A DNA stretch of 64,000 nt from Streptomyces uncialis (GTDB lineage Bacteria > Actinomycetota > Actinomycetes > Streptomycetales > Streptomycetaceae). Below, in pieces: positions 4,905-44,924 of this stretch. The notes below the pieces were generated by a model, which saw only the letters and a list, made by a program, of their open reading frames with translations, was not told the DNA's origin and did no database searches. How positions within the stretch are numbered: the stretch's first letter is position 1; each line of letters begins with the position of its first letter. The stretch is taken from contig NZ_LFBV01000008.1 of the NCBI RefSeq assembly GCF_001905345.1, forward strand, positions 186,001 through 250,000, read 5' to 3'. A program made the translations under genes and the position numbers.

Positions 4905-5770
4905 GTCACTCCCAGCAGGTCGCGAATGTAGTCCATGGACTCCCGAGGCTTGAGAGCCTGGGATCGGATCATGCCATACCTCAATTCCAGGATTCTGAGC
5001 TGCTTCGGATCACTCACCGGGCGCCCGCTGTAGGCACCCTCCGAACGGCCAACAGCAGAACCATCCGGAAATTTGAGGACCTGGATACTCCCATCGACTC
5101 CTGCATGCTCCTCGGTCCCGGTCGGCATCACCTGGATCGATACGCTCCGCAACTCGCCAACTTCCAACAAGCGTTCGAGCTGCTGGCGCAGTACCAGTCT
5201 GCCCCCGAGCGGCCGCTTGAGCGTGACCTCTTCCAAGACAAAACTCAGCGTCGGCGCCGGGGAACGTCCGAAGATCGCATGCCGAGCCAAGCGCGCAGCC
5301 ACGCCCCGCTCCACCTCCTCATGGGGATACGCCGGCTGCCGCATAGCAATGAGAGCCCGCGCATACTGCTCCGTCTGCAAGGTTCCGTGCAGACCATGAC
5401 TCCCGTAGGACAGAAGCTCGACAGCTTGCGCCTCCAGCTTGGCGAGCTTGCGGATCTTCTTCGGGTATCGAGCCTCCGTGAGGTCCTTCTTCAGGGCCGA
5501 GATCTTGCCACCGGCTCCAAGAACGGCATCCGCCTTGTCCAGGTACTCGGGCCGGGGGATACGAGCACCGCGTTCGACCTTGCGTACCAGGTCCTCGCCG
5601 TAGCCGATCCGGGCACCGAAGTCAGCGGCTCGCAGCCCGGCACCCTCGCGCCATGCCCTCATCTGGTTGCCCGCCATCTCCACGACCGGCGCGATCTCGT
5701 CCTCCGGGTCGACCTCCCAGCCGTCCTCGTCGCCCGCCGCTTCCGCCGCATCCGTTGTCCCGCTGTCCAC
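4901..5770 (-). CDS. XRE-family regulator with DUF5753 domain (WhiJ-like)
   Basis: A cytoplasmic DNA-binding protein of 289 residues. The N-terminal helix-turn-helix covers MRAWREGAGLRAADFGARIGYGEDLVRKVERGARIPRPEYL; the rest is the DUF5753 domain (ARALIAMRQP, FVLEEVTLKRPLGGRLVLRQQL, SIQVMPTGTEEHAGVDGS, LRILELRYGMIRSQALKPRES). I chose the GTG at 5770 because GGAGG lies 7 bp upstream; an in-frame ATG 30 codons earlier has no family support. Followed by three overlapping DUF397 genes. WhiJ-type proteins repress or tune development and secondary metabolism in Streptomyces; the targets here are unknown. Confidence 0.88.
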   Translation of the reverse strand: MDSGTTDAAEAAGDEDGWEVDPEDEIAPVVEMAGNQMRAWREGAGLRAADFGARIGYGEDLVRKVERGARIPRPEYLDKADAVLGAGGKISALKKDLTEARYPKKIRKLAKLEAQAVELLSYGSHGLHGTLQTEQYARALIAMRQPAYPHEEVERGVAARLARHAIFGRSPAPTLSFVLEEVTLKRPLGGRLVLRQQLERLLEVGELRSVSIQVMPTGTEEHAGVDGSIQVLKFPDGSAVGRSEGAYSGRPVSDPKQLRILELRYGMIRSQALKPRESMDYIRDLLGVT

Positions 5771-5960
5771 CCAGGCACCTCCGCCCGTACAGGTCCCGCT
5801 TCTCAGCCAACACAGCACATCAATAGGCCAGTTACCGTGCGTGCGGCCAACGTCACGCACAGGCTAAACGCAACCACTGACACGAGGTGGCGTGAACGGA
5901 GAAAGCGCTGTCCTCCGAGCAATTCTCATCGCCGGGCACCGGCAGCGGGTGACGGCCGAC

Positions 5961-6815
5961 CTATCGGTGTTCGAGGGAGGTCAAGGCATTCCCGATGACA
6001 CGACGGGCAGCAGCTCCCCGTACCGCACTTCCCGCCAAGCGACCAAAGGCCCGTACGTAGAGTTCGGCTTGGCTCGGCTGGGTCAGGGTGTGCGCGGCGT
6101 CCAGCGTGTCCACGTGGACACGCTCATCGTCGAACACGGTGAACGTGGCCATCGGCCAGACAGTGCGCTCCGCATCGAACGGGATGATGCCCAGAGCGAC
6201 GCTGGGTAGAGCCATGACGGTCAGGAGATGGCCGAGCTGGGCGGCCATGGTTTCGGTGTCAGCGACCCGGTGCCGCAGGACCGACTCCTCCAGCACGATC
6301 GAGAGGCGGTGGTTGCCCTCCCTGATGACCCGGTTCCGTTCCATGCGGGCAGCAACCGCCTCGCTCACGTCGTCCGGGGTACCCCGGAACGTGGCGATCG
6401 AGGAGAGGAGAGCCGTGGCGTACCCGGGAGTTTGGAAGAAGCCGGGGACGACATCGGAACAGTAGACACGGAACAGGACGGTCTGTCCGTACAGCGCCGC
6501 ACCGGACTCCTGCAAACGACGCAGCCCGGTGCGCTGGAGCCGTCGCCACTCGACGTGGGCCCCGGCGGACTGGCGGTTGGCCGCTACAAGGTCGGGTCCG
6601 TGTTCGGGCGTGCCGCAGGCGGCGCACCAAGCCCGGATGTCGGCGTCCGACGGTGCAGTTCGGGCGTTCTCGACTCGCGACGTCTTCGACTCGTGCCAGC
6701 CGCACCGTGCGGCCAGCTCGCGCCCCGAGATGCCGGCGTCCAGCCGTAATTCACGCAGCCGCGCGGCCAGGGCTTCGCGAGCCTGCCGAACGCTGGACGA
6801 GGGGTGTTCGGGCAA
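5961..6815 (-). CDS. XRE-family regulator with DUF5753 domain (second module)
   Basis: 284 residues. The helix-turn-helix lies in the first 65 (LRLDAGISGRELAARCGWHESKTSRVENART), then the DUF5753 region (VLFRVYCSDVVPGFFQTPGYATALL, RLSIVLEESVLRHRVAD, VALGIIPFDAERTVWPMATFTVFDDERVHVDTLDA). The start appears to be TTG at 6815, 18 bp after the stop of the DUF6879 gene, with only a distant GGAG, so expression probably depends on coupling. Unlike the neighbouring XRE gene it lies last in its operon and is paired with DUF6879 and an 84-residue protein rather than DUF397. Confidence 0.85.
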   Translation of the reverse strand: MPEHPSSSVRQAREALAARLRELRLDAGISGRELAARCGWHESKTSRVENARTAPSDADIRAWCAACGTPEHGPDLVAANRQSAGAHVEWRRLQRTGLRRLQESGAALYGQTVLFRVYCSDVVPGFFQTPGYATALLSSIATFRGTPDDVSEAVAARMERNRVIREGNHRLSIVLEESVLRHRVADTETMAAQLGHLLTVMALPSVALGIIPFDAERTVWPMATFTVFDDERVHVDTLDAAHTLTQPSQAELYVRAFGRLAGSAVRGAAARRVIGNALTSLEHR

Positions 6816-6833
6816 CGAGCCGGCCGTTCTCCG

Positions 6834-7349
6834 TCAGAGCTTGAATTGTTCGTGTGGAGTCGCGAGTTCCCACACCTTCTCGAATGCCGTCGCACAGAGC
6901 TGTGCGACGGCGGGCTCATCCATCATCTCGTCCTCGACCACGGCCCCGTCACCCGAGAAGTGGTGAACCCGCAGCAGGGCGCCGTCGAACAGCCAGAAGT
7001 CGTTCCCCGGCAGCGAGAGGCCGGTCGCCGCCCTCCGAGGCAGCCAACGGACCTGCTCACCAGCGGTCACGTTGGCGTGGGTGACGTAGTGCTCCCATCG
7101 GATGTACTCGCTCACCGGCTCCGAGACGATCCGGGCACGTCGGACGGTCACACCTCGGGCGACCGTGTCGGCGATCAACTGGTCGTACGGGTGCCACCAC
7201 GACGCCTGGTTCGCCCAGTCGATGCGCTCTCCACGTCGCCACGCCTCGAACCGCTCGGTGGCCGCGTAGGAGTCACGCATCTCCAGATGAACGGCGGACC
7301 GCTGGGTCGCACCGAGCAGTTCACCGAAGCTGGGCGCGTTCGACGGCAT
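6834..7349 (-). CDS. DUF6879 family protein
   Basis: A soluble protein of about 171 residues. Features seen are SFGELLGATQRSAVHLEMRD, a WANQASWWHPYDQLI segment, VSEPVSEYIRWEH, VRWLPRRAATGLSLPGNDFWLFDG and a C-terminal AVAQLCATAFEKVW, matching the DUF6879 family often found next to XRE/DUF5753 regulators. The biochemical role is unknown. GTG at 7352 and ATG at 7349 are adjacent; GGAGG sits 6 bp before the ATG, so I use the ATG. The gene overlaps the preceding 84-residue gene by 29 bp. Confidence 0.8.
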   Translation of the reverse strand: MPSNAPSFGELLGATQRSAVHLEMRDSYAATERFEAWRRGERIDWANQASWWHPYDQLIADTVARGVTVRRARIVSEPVSEYIRWEHYVTHANVTAGEQVRWLPRRAATGLSLPGNDFWLFDGALLRVHHFSGDGAVVEDEMMDEPAVAQLCATAFEKVWELATPHEQFKL

Positions 7350-7575
7350 CACATGCCTCCCTGATCACGGGGATCATCCGGGCCGGAATTCGGATGATCG
7401 CTTCGCTGGGCGGCACCGGCCCGTTCGCCGGGCTGGTCGCCTCGCACCGGGCATGTGTCTCCGAATCGGGCTTCCAGCCTTGGAGCAGGACCTCCTGCGC
7501 CTCTGTGTCAGCCCACGCTGTCGGGCAGTGGTCACGGTCGGTTTGGGGGTCGATTCCAATGAACTCCACGGACAT
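7321..7575 (-). CDS. Small hypothetical protein leading the DUF6879-XRE operon
   Basis: 84 residues starting MSVEFIGIDPQTDRDHCPTA and ending IRIPARMIPVIREACDAVER AQLR. I recognise this layout (VEFIGIDP near the start, WKP in the middle, IRIPARM near the end) as a small protein that accompanies XRE/DUF397 or DUF6879 modules in Streptomyces; its function is not known to me. The ATG has a good GGGAGG five bases upstream. The end overlaps the DUF6879 gene by 29 bp in another frame. It sits inside a much longer meaningless open frame and is easily missed. Confidence 0.7.
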   Translation of the reverse strand: MSVEFIGIDPQTDRDHCPTAWADTEAQEVLLQGWKPDSETHARCEATSPANGPVPPSEAIIRIPARMIPVIREACDAVERAQLR

Positions 7576-7803
7576 GCCAGCCTCCCGGCTTGGGCTCCTG
7601 CTTGGACTTGCATGAGTCTGCTGACCTGCGCCGAGGGTGTCAACAGCACTTACTTTCAGCGGAGTTGCTGCGCAAACCGGTGCAAGGTTGCGGAGTCGCG
7701 GGAGCCACATCCTCCAGTGTTTCTGCATGACGACTCGACCGAGCGGGACGGGGCTGATGTGACGTCGCAGAGCCACCGGTCGGCAGGGCCCAGGGCTTAT
7801 CCG

Positions 7804-8298
7804 ATGACGCACACCGTCTCGGACGAGGTTGCCGGGAGCACTCTGCCCACCACCACCGTGTTCCTCTACGACCGCAGCACCAGTTCTCCCCCCTCGGTGG
7901 TGTGCCGGGCACGGCTGGAAGATGCCTGGGTGTACGCCGAAGGGCAGGGCTGGTCGGTGGCGGCAGAGTTCGTGGACGTGGGTGACCACGCCGTTGCTGA
8001 CGACAATCGACCGGCCTGGGGGCGACTGCTGCGCGCGGCCTGCGCCTACGAGGCACCCGAGGTGCGGCTGCTGTGCCTCGTCCACTCCTGGCAACGCCTC
8101 GCGACCCGGCCCCGGACACAGCAAGCCCTGGCCCGGGAGCTGATGATCGCCGGAGCGCGGTTGGTGACGGTCGAGACAGACCGCGACGCATCTGGCCGCG
8201 GCGCCGGGCACGGACCGAGCGACCCGCTTGCAGCCGTTCCACGTCACGACGACCGCCCCAGGCGTTTTGCCGACGGACGCCCGCTTCCGGAAGCATGA
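7804..8298 (+). CDS. Resolvase-fold (serine recombinase N-terminal) protein, probably inactive
   Basis: 164 residues. Residues 18-125 follow the serine-resolvase fold: VFLYDRSTS strand, a helix ending GQGWSVAAEFVDVGDHA, then RPAWGRLLRAAC, LVHSWQRLATRP and ELMIAGARLVTVE. The usual R-x-S at the first strand reads R-S-T, and the DRLaR motif reads WQRLATR, so catalysis is doubtful. No DNA-binding helix-turn-helix or zinc domain follows; the last 40 residues look disordered. The stop is 4 bp before the hisS-like ATG, suggesting coupled expression. The ATG start is my choice because upstream codons in frame are not protein-like. Confidence 0.55.
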   Translation: MTHTVSDEVAGSTLPTTTVFLYDRSTSSPPSVVCRARLEDAWVYAEGQGWSVAAEFVDVGDHAVADDNRPAWGRLLRAACAYEAPEVRLLCLVHSWQRLATRPRTQQALARELMIAGARLVTVETDRDASGRGAGHGPSDPLAAVPRHDDRPRRFADGRPLPEA

Positions 8299-8302
8299 CC
8301 AC

Positions 8303-9631
8303 ATGGCCTCCCCGAAGCAGTTCGAGCCCGCGTCCGGGACGCGTGATTTCCTCGCCGCCGAGTTCGAGCGGCGCGAGCACGCGTTCTCGACCATCCGCAC
8401 CGTCTTCTCCCGCTACGGCTTCCAGCCGCTCCAGACCCCGGCGTTCGAGCGGCTGGACGTCCTGACCGGCAAGTACGGCGACGAGGGCGACAAGCTCGTC
8501 TTCAAGATCCTGCGGCGCGGCGAGCATGAGGCCACCGGCGAGGCCGATCTCGCCCTCCGCTACGACCTCACGGTTCCCCTGGCCCGCGCGGCAGCGGCGT
8601 ACGGCAGTCAGCTCCCGTCCCCGTACAAGCGGTACGCCATCGCTCCCGTGTGGCGGGCGGACCGGCCGGGCAAGGGGAGGTTCCGCGAGTTCGTCCAGTG
8701 CGACCTGGACATCGTCGGCTCGTCGTCGCCGTTGTCGGACGCCGAGGTCGTGCTGGCACTGCACGACGCCCTCGAAGCACTCGGCGTTCCCGAGTTCCGT
8801 TTCCTGGTGAACTCCCGCCACGTGCTGTTCGGGCTGCTTGAGGCGTACGAGGTTCCGGACGAGCTCGGCCCCGGCGCACTGATCACGCTCGACAAGCTCG
8901 ACAAGCTGTCCCCCGAAGCGGTCGTCACCGAGCTGGTGACAGGCCGTGGCCTGTCCCCGGAGATGGCGCGGGGCCTGGTCGACGACCTCACCGCAGCCGA
9001 CTCCGTCGCACGTATCCGGGGCCGGCTGAAGGCAAGCGAAGGCGGGCAGGCCGGGCTGGACGAGGTGGACCGGTTGCTGGAGCTCACCGAGGGTGCGATC
9101 CCGGCCGAGCGCATCGGTTTCGCCCCCAACCTCGTGCGCGGGCTCGACTACTACACCGGGATCATCTTCGAGGTGGTCGCACCGGGCACGCCCGGGTCGA
9201 TCGCGTCCGGCGGCCGGTACGACGGCCTCATCGGCCGACTCGGCGGCAAGGACTCCCCCGCGTGCGGCGGCTCCCTGGGCATCGAACGCATCCTGCCCCT
9301 GATCGCACAGGCCGACGAAGCCGCCTACTCGCAGATCGACGTGGCCGTCACGATCATGGGCGAGGAACAGGCGGCCGACAGCTTCCGCCTCGCCGCCGAG
9401 ATCCGCCGCACCGGGGTCCGCACGGGCGTCTACCTGGGGTCGAGCGGGAAGTTCGCCAAACAGATGAAGTGGGCCGGTGAGCAGGGAGCCCGCTTCTGCG
9501 TGATCTACGGCGCCGCAGAGCGCGAAGCCGGAACGGTCACGCTGCGGGACATGGAAAGCGGCGAACAGGTCCAGGTCCCGTTCGATCAGAGCGCTGCGGA
9601 GCTTTCGCGGCGGTGCACACCATCCAGTTGA
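8303..9631 (+). CDS. hisS: Histidyl-tRNA synthetase, archaeal/eukaryotic-like type
   Basis: Class II aminoacyl-tRNA synthetase charging tRNA-His with histidine. 442 residues: motif 1 region around FEPASGTRDFL and YGFQPLQTPAFERLD, motif 2 RPGKGRFREFVQCDLDIVG, histidine signature GLDYYTG, motif 3 SPACGGSLGIERILP, then an anticodon-binding domain. The stretches LRYDLTVPLARA and REFVQCDLDIVG match the archaeal/eukaryotic subgroup; typical bacterial enzymes read LRPEGTA and HQ. Housekeeping hisS in Streptomyces normally lies near relA, so this is likely an accessory copy (inference). Start ATG MASPKQ follows the resolvase-like gene by 4 bp. Confidence 0.88.
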   Translation: MASPKQFEPASGTRDFLAAEFERREHAFSTIRTVFSRYGFQPLQTPAFERLDVLTGKYGDEGDKLVFKILRRGEHEATGEADLALRYDLTVPLARAAAAYGSQLPSPYKRYAIAPVWRADRPGKGRFREFVQCDLDIVGSSSPLSDAEVVLALHDALEALGVPEFRFLVNSRHVLFGLLEAYEVPDELGPGALITLDKLDKLSPEAVVTELVTGRGLSPEMARGLVDDLTAADSVARIRGRLKASEGGQAGLDEVDRLLELTEGAIPAERIGFAPNLVRGLDYYTGIIFEVVAPGTPGSIASGGRYDGLIGRLGGKDSPACGGSLGIERILPLIAQADEAAYSQIDVAVTIMGEEQAADSFRLAAEIRRTGVRTGVYLGSSGKFAKQMKWAGEQGARFCVIYGAAEREAGTVTLRDMESGEQVQVPFDQSAAELSRRCTPSS

Positions 9632-9678
9632 CGCGCAGCGGACCCATTCCGCTGTCGGCTCGTTCCGAGGAGGAGCGG

Positions 9679-10290
9679 ATGGGAACGCAAGGCGATCGCA
9701 TTTTCGAGGTCACCTCTGAGCGGGGGTTCCCGGACCCCTGGCTCAGCTTCGGAGACTCCCTCTGTGATGAGGCAGCTATCAGCACAGAACTGACCCGAGC
9801 CATCACAAATGCCCGCAAGGAGCCTGCGGACGGGCCACGCCGCGAGGTCGCCCGGGTCTTCACAGCGAAGAAGGCGAACCTGCGCCGCTGCGCGGGCATC
9901 CTCGACCAGGTACTCAGCGACTACGACGAGTCCGGTATGTGGGGTGTGCTGGACGAGCGGGCCGCCAAGCTCAACGTGCAGGACGTACTGGAGACCTGGG
10001 GTCGTACGCAGGCACTCCATCCGTTCCCTGTCGTGCTCCGGAGCCTTGAGTTCAACTGGGGCTACATGAAGGAACACGGCGTCCGCGCGTTCTACGAGAT
10101 GACGCGGATCTATGTCTCACGGCTCCAGGAGAACACCGAGCGATGGCATGTGGCGTGGCGAGGCGAAGTCTCGACCGGCGTGGTGGACCGCATCACGTCC
10201 ATCGAGTGCGACCTGGCCAGCATCGAAGCTCCGATGCACTGCGACGTGTGCAAGAAGACGATCACGGCGCTTCTGTACCTCGATGAGTAA
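9679..10290 (+). CDS. Hypothetical protein downstream of hisS-like gene
   Basis: 203 residues, soluble, no recognised family. It starts MGTQGDRIFEVTSERGFPD and ends IEAPMHCDVCKKTITALLYL; the terminal Cx2C could bind metal or be redox-active but has no partner pair. I chose the ATG at 9679 because AGGAGG lies five bases upstream; a GTG at 9613 overlapping hisS lacks a site. It may form an operon with the synthetase. The aromatic-rich middle (HPFPVVLRSLEFNWGYMKEHGVRAFYEMTRIYV) suggests a folded helical domain. Confidence 0.6.
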   Translation: MGTQGDRIFEVTSERGFPDPWLSFGDSLCDEAAISTELTRAITNARKEPADGPRREVARVFTAKKANLRRCAGILDQVLSDYDESGMWGVLDERAAKLNVQDVLETWGRTQALHPFPVVLRSLEFNWGYMKEHGVRAFYEMTRIYVSRLQENTERWHVAWRGEVSTGVVDRITSIECDLASIEAPMHCDVCKKTITALLYLDE

Positions 10291-41447: not shown

Positions 41448-43676
41448 TCAGTCCCGGCGGGTTCTGAGCCGGGAGAGGGTCCAGCCCGTGCCCGCCGGGT
41501 CGAGGGGCCTGGTCGTCCGCTTGAAGAGGTGTTCGGCGCGTTCGTAGGAGAGCCGGGCCAGGCCCGTCACGGGGTCGAGGTCCGCTCCGGCCGCGCGGCG
41601 GGCGGGGCCCGGTCTGCGGTCGGTGAGGAACAGCGGGCCCCGGGTGCGGCCCTTGAGGTGGGCGGGGAGCAGCAGGGCGGTGCCCGCGCGCCAGCTCACC
41701 CAGGTGTCGCCGCTGCGGGCGCGGCGGTCGTCCAGGTCCAGCCGCTCGACGTCGAGGGCGAGCACCCGTTTCACCGGGGCCCCGGATTCGTGCAGCAGCC
41801 GCCACAGGAGCCGTTCGCGCGGCGGGACCCCGGGAAGGGCCCACAGGGCTTCGAGTCCGGCCGGGTCGAGCGACGGGGTGCGGGACGCGGTGGGGGTGCG
41901 GCGGGTCAGGCCCGCGGCGGGGTCGTCGTCGAGACCGGTCCAGGCGGCGAAGGAGCGCAGGGCGGAGCGGTGCCGGTTCCAGGTCGCCGGGCTCGCGTCG
42001 CCCCAGGCGGTGGTGAAGACGCGTTCGGCCCGCTCGGCGGTGAGTTCGGTGAGCGGCAGCCGGTCGCCGAGCGCGAGCCGCAGTCTGCGCAGTGTCTGGT
42101 GGTAGGAGCGGACGGTCGCGGGGTCGAGGTCGTCGCGGGCCAGGAACTCCTCGGCGGCCCGGCCGAGTGCGCGCGGGTCGGGCGGTGCGGGGGGCCCGGG
42201 GTGGGCGGCGGTCCAGGAGACGGCGGCGGCGAGGGCGTCGGCGCGGCGCAGGAGGAACGCCCGCTCGGCGGTGTTGCGGGTGAGGGAGGCGGCCCGTTCG
42301 AACTCGCGCCGGGCCTCGGTGTGCCGTCCGAGCCGGGACAGCAGGTCGCCGCGGACGCCGGGCAGCAGGTGGTAGTCCTTCAGCCGGGGGTCGGCGTCCA
42401 GTTCGTCGACGAGGGCGAGTCCGGCCTCCGGTCCGCGGGCGAAGCCGACGGCGACGGCCCGGTTGAGCCGCACCACGGGTGTCGGCAGCAGCCTGACCAG
42501 CGCTTCGTACAGGGCGGCGATCCCGGCCCAGTCGGTGTCCCCGGCGGTCCGGGCCTGGGCGTGGGTGACGGCGATCGCGGCCTGGAGGACGTACGGGCCG
42601 GGGGTGCGGCCGAGGTCCCGGGCGCGGAGCATCGACGCGAAGCCGCGGCGGATCAGCAGCGGGTCCCAGCGGCCCCGCTGCTGTTCGTGGAGCGGTACCG
42701 GTTCGCCGGTGGGGCCGGTACGGGCGGCCGACCGGGACTCCTGGATCTCCAGGAGGGCGGCCAGTCCGTGTGCCTCGGGTTCGTCGGGTGCGAGGGCGGC
42801 GAGCAGCCGGGCGAGCCGGAGTGCTTCGAGGGTGAGGCCGGGGCGCAGCAGGTCGTCGCCGGTGGTGGCCGAGTAGCCCTCGTTGAAGATGAGGTAGATC
42901 ACCTCCAGGACGGAGGAGAGCCGGGCGGCGAGTTCGTCGCCCTGGGGCAGTTCGAAGGGCACCCGGCGTTCGGCGAGGGTGCGTTTGGCGTCCGCGATCC
43001 GGCGGGCGGTCACGGTCCCGGTGACGAGGAACGCCCGCCCGATCTCCTCGGCGGTGAGCCCGCCGAGGAGACGCAGGGTGAGCGCGACCCGTTCCTCGGT
43101 GGGCAGCACGGGGTGGCAGGACAGGAACATCAGCCGCAGGACGTTGTCGTCGTCCCGGGCGTCGGTCTCCGGGCCTGTTGCGTGGCCTGTTGCGTGGCCC
43201 GTTTCGTGGCTTGTTCCGGGGTGGGTTCCCTGGTCGGTCTCCGGGTCGGTCCCGGGGGTGGCTCTGAGGTCGTTGCGGGGGTCGGGGCCGGGGGCGTCGT
43301 ACGGGTCGGAGGCGTCGTACGGGTTGGTTTCGTCGTACGGGTCGGGGGCTTCGAACCGGGCGGTGCGGAGCTGTTCCCGCTGGTCGTGGGCGAGGAGTTC
43401 CTGTCCGCGGGCGGCGCGCTGCTCGCGGCGGAGATGGTCGACGGCCCGGCGTTTGGCGACGGCCATCAGCCAGGCGCCCGGGTTGTCCGGGACGCCTGAC
43501 CGTGGCCACTGTTCGAGCGCCGACACGAGCGCGTCCTGGGCGAGTTCCTCGGCCAGGCCGATGTCCCGGGTCATCCGCGCCAGACCGGCGATGATCCGCG
43601 CGGACTCCAGCTTCCAGACCGCGTCGACCGCGCCGGCCGGGTCGGGATTGGACGGGACGCCGTCGTCCGTGTTCAT
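41448..43676 (-). CDS. ECF sigma factor (DUF6596/ECF42-like) fused to a degenerate tyrosine-recombinase-like domain
   Basis: 742 residues. Sigma2 covers about 15-90 (GLAEELAQDALVSALEQWP, AWLMAVAKRRAVDHLRREQ); a Pro/Asp/Thr-rich linker lies at 110-175; sigma4 at 180-240 (LTAEEIGRAFLVTGTVTARR); DUF6596 and a TPR-like tail to about 490 (YLIFNEGYSATTGDDLLRPG, YEALVRLLPTPVVRLNRAVA, DYHLLPGVRGDLLSRLGR). Residues 505-590 look like a phage-integrase core-binding domain (DPATVRSYHQTLRRLRLALG, TWNRHRSALRSFAAWTG), and 605-742 like the catalytic domain, but the first Arg reads Pro (SGAPVKRVLALDVERLDLD), the HxLRH box reads SRLRT, and the protein ends before the Tyr. Most ECF42 proteins stop near residue 490. 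Transcribed after the DGPF gene. Confidence 0.8.
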   Translation of the reverse strand: MNTDDGVPSNPDPAGAVDAVWKLESARIIAGLARMTRDIGLAEELAQDALVSALEQWPRSGVPDNPGAWLMAVAKRRAVDHLRREQRAARGQELLAHDQREQLRTARFEAPDPYDETNPYDASDPYDAPGPDPRNDLRATPGTDPETDQGTHPGTSHETGHATGHATGPETDARDDDNVLRLMFLSCHPVLPTEERVALTLRLLGGLTAEEIGRAFLVTGTVTARRIADAKRTLAERRVPFELPQGDELAARLSSVLEVIYLIFNEGYSATTGDDLLRPGLTLEALRLARLLAALAPDEPEAHGLAALLEIQESRSAARTGPTGEPVPLHEQQRGRWDPLLIRRGFASMLRARDLGRTPGPYVLQAAIAVTHAQARTAGDTDWAGIAALYEALVRLLPTPVVRLNRAVAVGFARGPEAGLALVDELDADPRLKDYHLLPGVRGDLLSRLGRHTEARREFERAASLTRNTAERAFLLRRADALAAAVSWTAAHPGPPAPPDPRALGRAAEEFLARDDLDPATVRSYHQTLRRLRLALGDRLPLTELTAERAERVFTTAWGDASPATWNRHRSALRSFAAWTGLDDDPAAGLTRRTPTASRTPSLDPAGLEALWALPGVPPRERLLWRLLHESGAPVKRVLALDVERLDLDDRRARSGDTWVSWRAGTALLLPAHLKGRTRGPLFLTDRRPGPARRAAGADLDPVTGLARLSYERAEHLFKRTTRPLDPAGTGWTLSRLRTRRD

Positions 43677-43689
43677 CGGCGGGCGGCCG

Positions 43690-44013
43690 TCACTGGCCGA
43701 AGACCTGCTGGATCACGCTCTCGCCGTCGCCGACGATCCGGCGGAAGCGGCGGCCCAGCTCCACGGCCTCCTCCTTGGTGCGGACCTCCACCAGCGCGAA
43801 GCCGGCCACCGCTTCCTTGGCCTCGGTGAAGGGGCCGTCCGTCACGGTGATCTCGTCGCCGGACGAGACGAGGCGGATGCCCTCGGGGGCGAGGCCGCCG
43901 GTCGCCAGCAGGGCACCGGAGGCGGTGAGCTCCTCGACGAACGCCGCCATCTCCTGGAACAGCTTCTCGTCGGGGACGGAGGAGGACGCCTTGGTGGTCA
44001 TCAGGTAGCGCAT
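43690..44013 (-). CDS. YCII/DGPF domain protein, partner of the ECF factor
   Basis: 107 residues: MRYLMTTKASSSVPDEKLFQ, LLATGGLAPEGIRLVSSGDEITVTDGPFTEAKEAVAGFALVEV. The DGPF motif (as TDGPFTEAKE) is the hallmark of proteins encoded next to ECF42-type sigma factors. Role unknown; possibly a co-regulator or enzyme. Start ATG 44013 fits the family; the frame extends further upstream. 13 bp before the sigma gene. Confidence 0.9.
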   Translation of the reverse strand: MRYLMTTKASSSVPDEKLFQEMAAFVEELTASGALLATGGLAPEGIRLVSSGDEITVTDGPFTEAKEAVAGFALVEVRTKEEAVELGRRFRRIVGDGESVIQQVFGQ

Positions 44014-44081
44014 GAGGATCTCTCTTCTCTGCTTGCCCCGGAGTCTGTTCCGGTTGCTCTGCCCACACGTCGTTCCGTCGA

Positions 44082-44113
44082 TGTGACAGGGAATGGCGGC
44101 GTTCCCTGTCACA
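44082..44113. promoter_or_regulatory. Perfect 12-bp palindrome in divergent promoter
   Basis: TGTGACAGGGAA and TTCCCTGTCACA face each other across 8 bp (44094-44101), midway between the DGPF-sigma operon and the DUF998 gene. Such a perfect operator-like dyad in a divergent region suggests a regulator binding site or overlapping promoters. The binding protein is unknown. Confidence 0.6.
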
Positions 44114-44213
44114 TTAGCGTTCGACGTGTCAGCGAGCCCACCCCGACGGCAGGCTCACCGGAACCCGGTCCACCGACCGGCGGCCCGGGTCCGAGAACCG
44201 AGAAGGGCACGTC

Positions 44214-44924
44214 ATGACCGCCACGCACATCCCCTCCGCCTCCACCGGCTCCGTTTCCTCCGCGTCCGGCCCGTCCGCCCCGGCCCGCCGGTACGCCGGT
44301 GCTTCCGTCGCCCGGCGGCTGCTGGTGGCGGGGGCGGTGTCCGCGCCGCTGTGGGCGGTCTCCGCCCTGACCCAGGCCGCTACCCGGGACGGCTTCGACA
44401 TCACCCGTCATCCGCTGAGCGTGCTGAGCAACGGCTCGCTCGGCTGGCTCCAGATCACGACGTTCGTCGTCGTGGGAGTGCTCGCCATGGCGGGTGCGCT
44501 GGGGATGCGCCGGGCGCTGCGGGGAACGCCCGGCGGGGTATGGGTGCCCCGGCTGCTGCTGGTCAACGGGATCGCCATGATCGCGGCGGGTGTGTTCGTC
44601 ATGGACCCGGCCGACGGATTCCCGGCCGGCACCCCGGAGGGAACGCCCGCGTCGCTGTCCGGGGCGAGCATCGGGCACATGGCCGCCGGGTCGGTCGCGT
44701 TCTTCTCGCTGATCGCGGCGAACTACGTCCTGGTGCGGCACTTCCGCCGGGCCGGCCGGTCCGCCGAGGCCGTGCTGTCGCTGGTCGCGGGGACGGCGCT
44801 GCTGCTCGGCAACGGCTGGGCGATGGCGGGCGGCACGGCCGGGACGCTGACGCTGGCGGTCGGGGCGCTCACCGCGATGCTGTGGGTGTCGGCGGTCGCG
44901 GCGAGGGCGTCGCGCGGCGTGTGA
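44214..44924 (+). CDS. DUF998 membrane protein
   Basis: 236 residues, about six membrane segments: LLVAGAVSAPLWAVSALTQAA, LQITTFVVVGVLAMAGALG, LLLVNGIAMIAAGVFVMDP, IGHMAAGSVAFFSLIAANYVLV, LSLVAGTALLLGNGW. DFITRHPLS-like TRDGFDITRHPLSVLSNGSLGW is typical of DUF998. Function unknown. Divergent from the ECF operon. Confidence 0.82.
   Translation: MTATHIPSASTGSVSSASGPSAPARRYAGASVARRLLVAGAVSAPLWAVSALTQAATRDGFDITRHPLSVLSNGSLGWLQITTFVVVGVLAMAGALGMRRALRGTPGGVWVPRLLLVNGIAMIAAGVFVMDPADGFPAGTPEGTPASLSGASIGHMAAGSVAFFSLIAANYVLVRHFRRAGRSAEAVLSLVAGTALLLGNGWAMAGGTAGTLTLAVGALTAMLWVSAVAARASRGV

Follow-up and report, generated by a model that had tools for sequence, protein, structure and literature searches.

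Organization of the Locus

The window analyzed here is a stretch of 64,000 nucleotides from Streptomyces uncialis (contig NZ_LFBV01000008.1, positions 186,001 to 250,000 of the forward strand), and all coordinates below refer to it. Its minus strand carries a gene in which a sigma factor of the extracytoplasmic function (ECF) group ECF42 and a tyrosine-recombinase-like domain are joined in one protein. A DGPF/YCII-family gene precedes it as the first gene of the operon, and a DUF998 gene diverges from this DGPF-sigma operon. Between the two, at 44081-44114, lies a perfect 13-8-13 inverted repeat of the half-site TTCCCTGTCACAT (Table 1). A preliminary description made from the sequence had reported the sigma factor and the integrase-like part in the same open frame, with no stop between them and with an intact DGPF partner upstream, all of which we found as described; the strand of the gene and the repeat were absent from it and were established here.

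The assignment of residues 1-490 to an ECF42/DUF6596-type sigma factor was also upheld. Sigma70_r2 and DUF6596 were recognized over their cut-offs and Sigma70_r4_2 and the tetratricopeptide repeat (TPR) matches below them, and this part of the protein can be aligned with non-fused ECF42 proteins. Three features of the group were found in the window: sigma2 and sigma4 with no sigma3 among the Pfam matches, DUF6596 with a weak TPR extension, and the DGPF/YCII neighbor, which stands upstream of the fused gene in all 52 fused loci that we collected. The sigma2-sigma4 linker, which the predicted local distance difference test (pLDDT) marks as disordered, is long and rich in repeats (DPYD.., HATG..).

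Table 1. Coordinates of the genes, domains and promoter elements discussed in the text.
Feature	Coordinates	Strand	Basis
Fused gene, ECF42-type sigma factor and tyrosine-recombinase-like domain, 742 aa	41448..43676	minus	Single open frame; 52 collected homologous loci likewise
Sigma region 2, residues 30-87	43416..43589	minus	Pfam PF04542 (Sigma70_r2), E 1.4e-10, over cut-off
Disordered sigma2-sigma4 linker, residues 118-173	43158..43325	minus	AlphaFold2 pLDDT < 50
Sigma region 4, residues 182-232	42981..43133	minus	Pfam PF08281 (Sigma70_r4_2) below cut-off, 20 vs 25.7 bits, E 5e-4
Codon of residue 229	42990-42992	minus	Asp in window protein; Arg in 72/72 non-fused rows
DUF6596, residues 252-352	42621..42923	minus	Pfam PF20239, E 8e-34
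TPR-like C-terminal ECF42 extension, residues 353-490	42207..42620	minus	Sub-threshold TPR matches at about 441-484; helices in model
Core-binding (SAM-like) domain and linker, residues 503-598, boundaries approximate	41883..42170	minus	Pfam PF02899, AlphaFold2
Partial catalytic domain, residues 599-742, truncated at HxLRH box	41451..41882	minus	Residue comparison, AlphaFold2, PDB matches
DGPF/YCII-family gene, 107 aa, first in operon	43690..44013	minus	PF03795, E 3.5e-10; intact
Predicted -10-like CGACG of DGPF-sigma operon, 8 nt beyond half-site	44068..44072	minus	Consensus match
Second CGACG, abutting half-site	44076-44080	minus	Sequence match
Half-site TTCCCTGTCACAT reading toward DGPF-sigma operon	44081..44093	minus	Exact
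Half-site TTCCCTGTCACAT reading toward DUF998	44102..44114	plus	Exact; partner of 44081..44093 arm
Predicted -10-like CGACG of divergent DUF998 gene, 7 nt beyond its half-site	44122..44126	plus	Consensus match
Divergent DUF998 gene, proposed target	44214..44924	plus	PF06197, E 1e-32

Fold and Catalytic Residues of the Recombinase Domain

The preliminary description had likened residues 505-742 to the core-binding and catalytic domains of integrases, and both profile searches and structure prediction matched this part of the protein to integrases and tyrosine recombinases. Phage_int_SAM_1 (PF02899) was found at residues 518-579 with 23.6 bits (Pfam cut-off 22.3), the NCBIfam XerA/XerC models matched residues 517-653 weakly and far under their cut-offs, and a 59-row profile of the domain retrieved XerD in the PDB at 1e-6. 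AlphaFold2, given an alignment of 47 of the 52 fused rows and 12 stand-alone rows, modeled residues 498-742 with a mean pLDDT of 94.9. The top PDB matches of this model were tyrosine recombinases, namely XerH (Z 13.3), the integron integrase IntI (13.2) and the Tn1549 integrase (13.2), and further matches included lambda Int (13.1) and Cre (12.4). The core-binding and catalytic fold is present in the window domain, the catalytic part being incomplete at its C-terminus, and T, W, N, and H of the TWNRH motif in the core-binding domain are invariant across 59 fused and stand-alone rows.

Of the catalytic set R K H R H Y, the window protein has P, G, S, and R at the first four positions and lacks the last two, so that five of the six residues are gone: Arg I, Lys, His, the second His, and Tyr. 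The replacement of the first catalytic Arg (now Pro), the altered HxLRH box (SRLRT) and the end of the chain before the Tyr had all been pointed out in the preliminary description; the comparison of residues agreed with it on each and added the loss of the Lys.

The 27 rows of stand-alone recombinases mostly retain the set (R-I 25, K 23, H 24, R-II 26, H-III 25, Y 24). Among the fused proteins, 51 of 52 miss at least one catalytic residue, and 37 stop before the second His and Tyr. Thirteen fused relatives keep the HxLRH region and have the Tyr replaced by Phe (12) or Leu (1), the fused protein of locus L242 has T R R R H Y at the catalytic positions, and that of L221 is the sole one with all six residues. 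The latter (L221, G605:C62, 5533-7683) stops shortly past the Tyr and is possibly still able to cleave DNA. Because the truncated rows occupy two places in the tree, one being type A and the other the L245 group inside type B (both types are introduced below), at least two separate truncations of the fused domain are suggested, although the node between the two places has a support of just 78/70. Catalysis appears to have been lost after the fusion, and we infer from the residues that the window protein has lost the ability to cut DNA.

Distribution, Phylogeny, and Selection

The same fusion was found in other Streptomyces and beyond, in at least 8 of 101 genomes of the genus (the window's own genome counted) and in at least 15 of 394 genomes drawn from the class. 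Bearers include Kitasatospora indigofera, Sphaerisporangium, Streptosporangium, Microtetraspora niveoalba, Streptomyces anulatus, Nonomuraea, and Herbidospora, and the fused gene also occurs on Streptomyces plasmids. In S. anulatus NBC_01523 it is annotated as "sigma factor" only; plasmid unnamed2 of this strain (L255) carries the unit of DUF998 gene, repeat, DGPF gene, and fused sigma gene on a linear molecule, near cas1e/cas2e.

Both parts lie in one stop-free frame in 52 of 52 collected loci, a count that is partly built in, since many of the loci were chosen because the match lay in a long open frame. The fused rows are diverged and span two families of Actinomycetota, and therefore a local sequencing error or chance read-through was ruled out. 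Nor was the C-terminal part met as a separate gene beside the sigma gene: none of the 35 stand-alone recombinase loci adjoins a separate intact sigma gene, and no unfused recombinase was seen beside an intact ECF42 operon among them. One further candidate, L166 (G448), was omitted, its 715-aa frame holding no sigma part.

The 52 fused domains fall on one side of a branch (support 99/91) in a tree built from 79 recombinase domains; two of the four intended outgroup rows were placed elsewhere, so that the nesting of the fused domains among the stand-alone ones depends on rooting with L167/L177. The first alignment excluded L134, L166, and L176, and two of the fused rows, L038 and L250, are identical in the recombinase domain. 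A quick tree of the sigma part likewise placed the fused rows in one group (99) with two subclades, type A (32 rows, support 99) and type B (20 rows, support 98). The window protein belongs to the type A subclade. In 200 close pairs, which are non-independent, the ratio of nonsynonymous to synonymous substitutions (dN/dS), obtained by simple counting, had a median of 0.35 and a maximum of 0.67 for the recombinase domain and a median of 0.23 for the sigma part. By these estimates the recombinase domain is under purifying selection. The fusion is old and has been kept, being shared by Streptomyces, Kitasatospora, and Streptosporangiaceae.

The Half-Site at Fused Loci

The half-site, allowing at most one mismatch, lies less than 350 bp from the DGPF start in 51 of the 52 fused loci and is exact in 45 of them, vs. 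none of 72 non-fused ECF42 loci, two of which have it at two mismatches. The 72 loci are the best matches listed in one scan and come from several phyla; the DGPF gene was located in 49 of them, and in the other 23 the region scored was set by a constant distance from the start of the sigma gene. (Among the 97 loci of an earlier control, 25 had flanks so short that they may miss the promoter.) Twenty mononucleotide shuffles of the fused upstream regions gave no half-site at this limit. The possibility that the half-site is an ordinary ECF42 element was ruled out by its absence, at up to one mismatch, from the 72 non-fused loci.

An exact arm is present in 20 of the 394 class genomes. Fourteen of these are among the at least 15 fused-bearing genomes and have it, in each case, at the fused locus, where the fifteenth (G274) has a one-mismatch arm. 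The exact arm was also met in 6 of the 379 other genomes, as four single sites and in G409 and G401, which have a common flank; matches to a reversed control pattern occurred in 5 of the 394 genomes. Two half-sites with up to two mismatches per 64 kb are in themselves not rare (11 of 100 shuffles); the window pair is both exact and paired. In the window's own genome, the half-site followed by the -10 pattern occurs just twice, both times at this repeat and once per direction. No other target of this kind was found there, and three single half-sites with one mismatch lie elsewhere in the genome. Inverted pairs in 24 fused loci have spacers of 8 (18 loci), 9 (5), or 10 bp (1). At L149 (G004:C4), an inverted repeat lies about 2.9 kb from the DGPF gene in an insertion-like arrangement.

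A divergent DUF998 gene lies within 700 bp in 24 of the 32 type A and 14 of the 20 type B loci (38 of 52 fused) vs. 0 of the 72 non-fused loci.

Promoter Layouts and the Change in Sigma4

Sigma factors generally locate promoters via two short boxes, which in the ECF42 consensus are TGTCGA at -35 and CG[AT]C at -10. Upstream of non-fused loci with the DGPF gene located, the pattern TGTCG[AG]-N15-19-CG[AT]C was found in 31 of 49, the other 18 being without the strict pattern; TGTCGA itself matches in six of six positions in 30 of 49. Promoters of the ECF42 factor RpoE10 of Sinorhizobium show TGTCGG and CGTC (PMC6180224).

The window promoter has the -10 element and lacks the ECF42 -35 box, a layout common to type A. 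In the 27 alignable type A rows (all except L149, L038, L250, L040, and L044), CGACG follows the half-site after 8-9 bp and the half-site occupies the -35 region; the sequence closest to TGTCGA at the -35 spacing agrees with it in just two of six positions in each of the 27 promoters. The arrangement is mirrored toward DUF998: of the 28 type A loci with a left arm, 27 have a CGTCG at a distance of 7-9 bp from it. In the 20 type B rows, half-sites in direct orientation are followed by an ECF42-like promoter. The best -35 match lies 28-29 bp (5 rows), 39-42 bp (13 rows), or 52 bp (L242) from the last half-site; L240 has a poor match at 21 bp. The main spacings differ in steps of about one DNA turn.

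The sigma factor differs between the types as well. All 72 non-fused proteins and all 20 of type B have Arg at residue 229, against 1 of 32 of type A (L154). In the AlphaFold2 model this residue is situated in the second helix of the sigma4 helix-turn-helix, and a profile alignment pairs it with an Arg of the sigma-H factor of 6in7; in relatives, this residue reads the -35 box. Conserved positions changed in type A number 0 of 39 in sigma2, the reader of the -10 box, 4 of 40 in sigma4, and 2 of 130 in DUF6596/TPR. Since type A is one clade, the loss of TGTCGA and Arg229 counts as one evolutionary event and not as 32; Fisher values on this association, which treat relatives as independent, were left unused.

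Stand-Alone Recombinases and the Origin of the Site

The nearest stand-alone relative of the window domain among the class genomes (L172; 54% identity) has the full catalytic set and an exact repeat upstream, with a spacer of 7 bp. The CTGTCACA core occurs within 1.1 kb upstream in 16 of 29 stand-alone loci (a count that leaves out the fused L255), where about three would be expected at a background of 0.10 per kb, and eight of the 29 have an inverted pair with a spacer of 6 (three loci) or 7 bp (five). The letters of the arm vary by recombinase group, being TTCCC near the fused clade and TTCTC or TTACC in remoter groups. Core sites of recombinases have spacers of 6-8 bp; the spacer measures 8 bp in the window repeat, 8-10 bp across the fused loci, and 6-7 bp in the stand-alone ones. 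Since the nearest stand-alone recombinases have the half-site upstream as well, it most likely originated as the core site of the recombinase itself.

Several stand-alone loci deserve mention in their own right. L216, L228, L230, and L169 have an attachment-like region consisting of an inverted pair with a 7-bp spacer and a third half-site 77-78 bp nearer the gene. On plasmid unnamed2 of Streptomyces longwoodensis (L256), a stand-alone relative directly follows the mercury-resistance genes merA/merR/merB. In L172, the repeat sits just upstream of a small gene without a Pfam family, which separates it from the recombinase.

Present-day meetings of the fused-domain recombinase family with ECF42-type genes were seen twice, at L179 and L226. 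In L179 (G409:C50, about 5137-10036), a non-fused ECF42 gene is split by an element some 4.9 kb long. By eye the frames of this element are TetR-, MFS-, DsbA-, reductase-, and SDR-like, together with a truncated recombinase of the fused-domain family; the same inverted repeat stands at one end, and an extra half-site precedes the recombinase. L226 (G448:C1, 6237-6832) is the only one of the 35 stand-alone loci with any sigma part, and this is a fragment. Its recombinase fragment, which shares 89% identity with L172 across 119 residues, lies directly against part of a DUF6596-type sigma gene encoded on the other strand, so that this recombinase family adjoins such a gene for a second time.

Proposed Capture of a Recombinase and Its Site: Model and Alternatives

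Based on these observations, we consider it likely that an inactive recombinase was captured along with its site, the two now forming a promoter-targeting module of the sigma factor. According to this model, a DGPF-sigma operon would at first have been flanked by a recombinase gene with its core site. The recombinase gene would then have been joined in frame to the sigma gene downstream, the core site staying upstream; the domain would have lost catalysis and been retained as a sequence-specific DNA-binding module, while the former core site would have become an element of the promoter from which the sigma factor itself is expressed. The palindrome of type A would serve two divergent promoters (DGPF-sigma and DUF998), each arm standing 7-9 bp upstream of a CGACG -10 in place of the missing -35 box, so that sigma2 would read the -10 element and the recombinase domain would anchor the protein upstream, replacing the contacts of sigma4 with TGTCGA. 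In type B, the half-sites, lying upstream of a recognizable ECF42 promoter, would provide the operon with an activator site of its own. We infer that the domain binds the half-site, activates rather than represses, and autoregulates the DGPF-sigma operon with DUF998 as co-target.

On balance we also favor, with somewhat less confidence than the capture itself, the view that sigma factor and activator have come to reside in a single polypeptide, the upstream recognition having passed from sigma4 and the -35 box to a domesticated recombinase and a former recombination site. Jointly with it, and at the same strength, we favor the view that the series from enzyme to regulator is preserved among living relatives, in L221, L242, the group with Tyr replaced by Phe, and the truncated groups.

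The main alternative, which we regard as unlikely, is that the domain binds the half-sites as an autorepressor and, without an activating signal, blocks the promoter through the overlap with the -35 region. The type A half-sites do overlap this region, and the recombinase-fold regulator MrpR is a repressor (PMC10516654), but the type B half-sites precede the -35 box, in an activator-like position, and the type A promoters offer an unaided sigma4 no recognizable TGTCGA, Arg229 also being gone.

The preliminary description had left the choice between a DNA-binding relic and a new DNA-targeting module. The second of these is favored by the distribution of the half-site, evidence that the preliminary description did not have and from which binding is predicted. 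A mere relic is unlikely because the domain has been kept in Streptomycetaceae and Streptosporangiaceae with dN/dS below 1, and a near-invariant half-site lies upstream of fused operons and not of non-fused ones. The related explanation that the C-terminal part is inert, or makes protein contacts only, while another protein binds the repeat seems to us improbable. It would accommodate the loss of five of six catalytic residues in the window protein, and the L172 repeat indeed directly precedes the small gene and not the recombinase; yet the half-site tracks the recombinase domain rather than the sigma factor, the domain is under purifying selection, and the small gene of L172 was not found in the 52 fused or the other examined stand-alone loci (tblastn, E <= 1e-3).

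It is very improbable that the half-site is an altered -35 box read by sigma4, with the recombinase domain incidental. The half-site does span the -35 region in type A, where sigma4 changed along with it, but type B, which keeps Arg229, shows these half-sites ahead of an ECF42-like promoter, and they are also present at stand-alone recombinase loci that have no sigma gene. Hardly credible is a recombinase that is still active and flips or removes DNA at the repeat, perhaps as a promoter switch, for which the full catalytic set of L221 could be cited, but not the losses in the other 51 fused proteins, the 37 chains that end before the second His and Tyr, or the spacers of 8-10 bp in 24 fused vs. 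6-7 bp in 8 stand-alone loci.

Several observations weigh against the joint capture of recombinase and site as the source of a promoter-targeting module. The window domain is without the last helices of the catalytic domain, which in known recombinases aid binding and assembly. In the full-length AlphaFold2 model (alignment of 41 of the 52 fused and 9 non-fused rows; predicted template modeling score 0.52), the placement of the recombinase domain relative to the sigma part is undefined. The half-site is missing beside the DGPF gene of one fused locus, L149; L040 and L044 retain just the DUF998-facing arm, and the operon-side arm is degenerate in L038/L250. The type B -35 elements, which were picked as best matches, agree with TGTCGA exactly in 9 rows, in five of six positions in 9, and in four of six in 2. 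TGTCGA and Arg229 may have been lost by coincidence on a single branch. In 14 of the 52 fused loci, a divergent DUF998 gene was not found with the window's protein as the sole query. Finally, 13 of the 29 stand-alone loci, including all six most distant rows, have no CTGTCACA core within 1.1 kb upstream, and some of those that have it (about three by background) would be matched by chance.

If the capture took place as proposed, this lineage seems to have swapped one promoter box and its reader for a protein-site pair from mobile DNA. It would offer a naturally occurring and testable example of promoter specificity being rewired in a single step, with surviving intermediates, and would illustrate a route from the enzymes of mobile elements to regulators. 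The 13-bp half-site and the -10 element, together with the fused protein, could then provide an orthogonal sigma/promoter part for synthetic biology in actinomycetes.

Comparison With Known Systems

No report of a fusion between a sigma factor and a recombinase was found in the open-licence literature searched, which does not establish absence from print, and the words integrase and recombinase did not occur in the available parts of two ECF reviews (PMC8999054, PMC8103513) and a survey of DUF6596 sigma factors (PMC11119718). ECF42 sigma factors with TPR extensions and conserved partners have been described (PMC8999054, PMC8103513); the TPR extension is essential, and the conserved neighbor protein is likely regulatory (PMC8999054). 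The window family shares with this group sigma2, sigma4, the DUF6596/TPR extension, the DGPF partner gene, and, in type B, an ECF42-like promoter, but adds a tyrosine-recombinase domain of 245 residues, half-sites in the promoter, and a divergent DUF998 gene; type A, moreover, lacks the -35 box and the otherwise invariant Arg of sigma4. Extensions added C-terminally to sigma2-sigma4 are known from other ECF sigma factors too, but these have been described as sensory, inhibitory, or protein-binding, and not as DNA-binding with a site of their own (PMC8999054, available part).

With respect to the fold, a close parallel is MrpR, the master repressor of prophage SPbeta (PDB 8A0A), in which a tyrosine-recombinase fold serves as a DNA-binding regulator and catalysis has been lost (PMC10516654). 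The window domain has the same combination of recombinase fold and lost catalytic residues, and MrpR (Z 8.5) and SroF of phi3T (Z 9.4) are among its structural matches. Both differ from it in being free-standing phage regulators unjoined to a sigma factor, SroF being known to us by its PDB title only. The stand-alone actinobacterial recombinases of plasmids and other elements (L172, L216, H1, and relatives) are linked to the window domain by direct sequence kinship and by the same upstream half-site; they differ in a mostly complete catalytic set, a longer C-terminus, a spacer of 6-7 bp, and, in four loci, a third half-site. ECF42 factors with extensions and the recombinase-fold regulator MrpR were already known, and what is new here lies in the DNA, in a half-site that stands upstream both of the fused operons and of the closest stand-alone recombinases.

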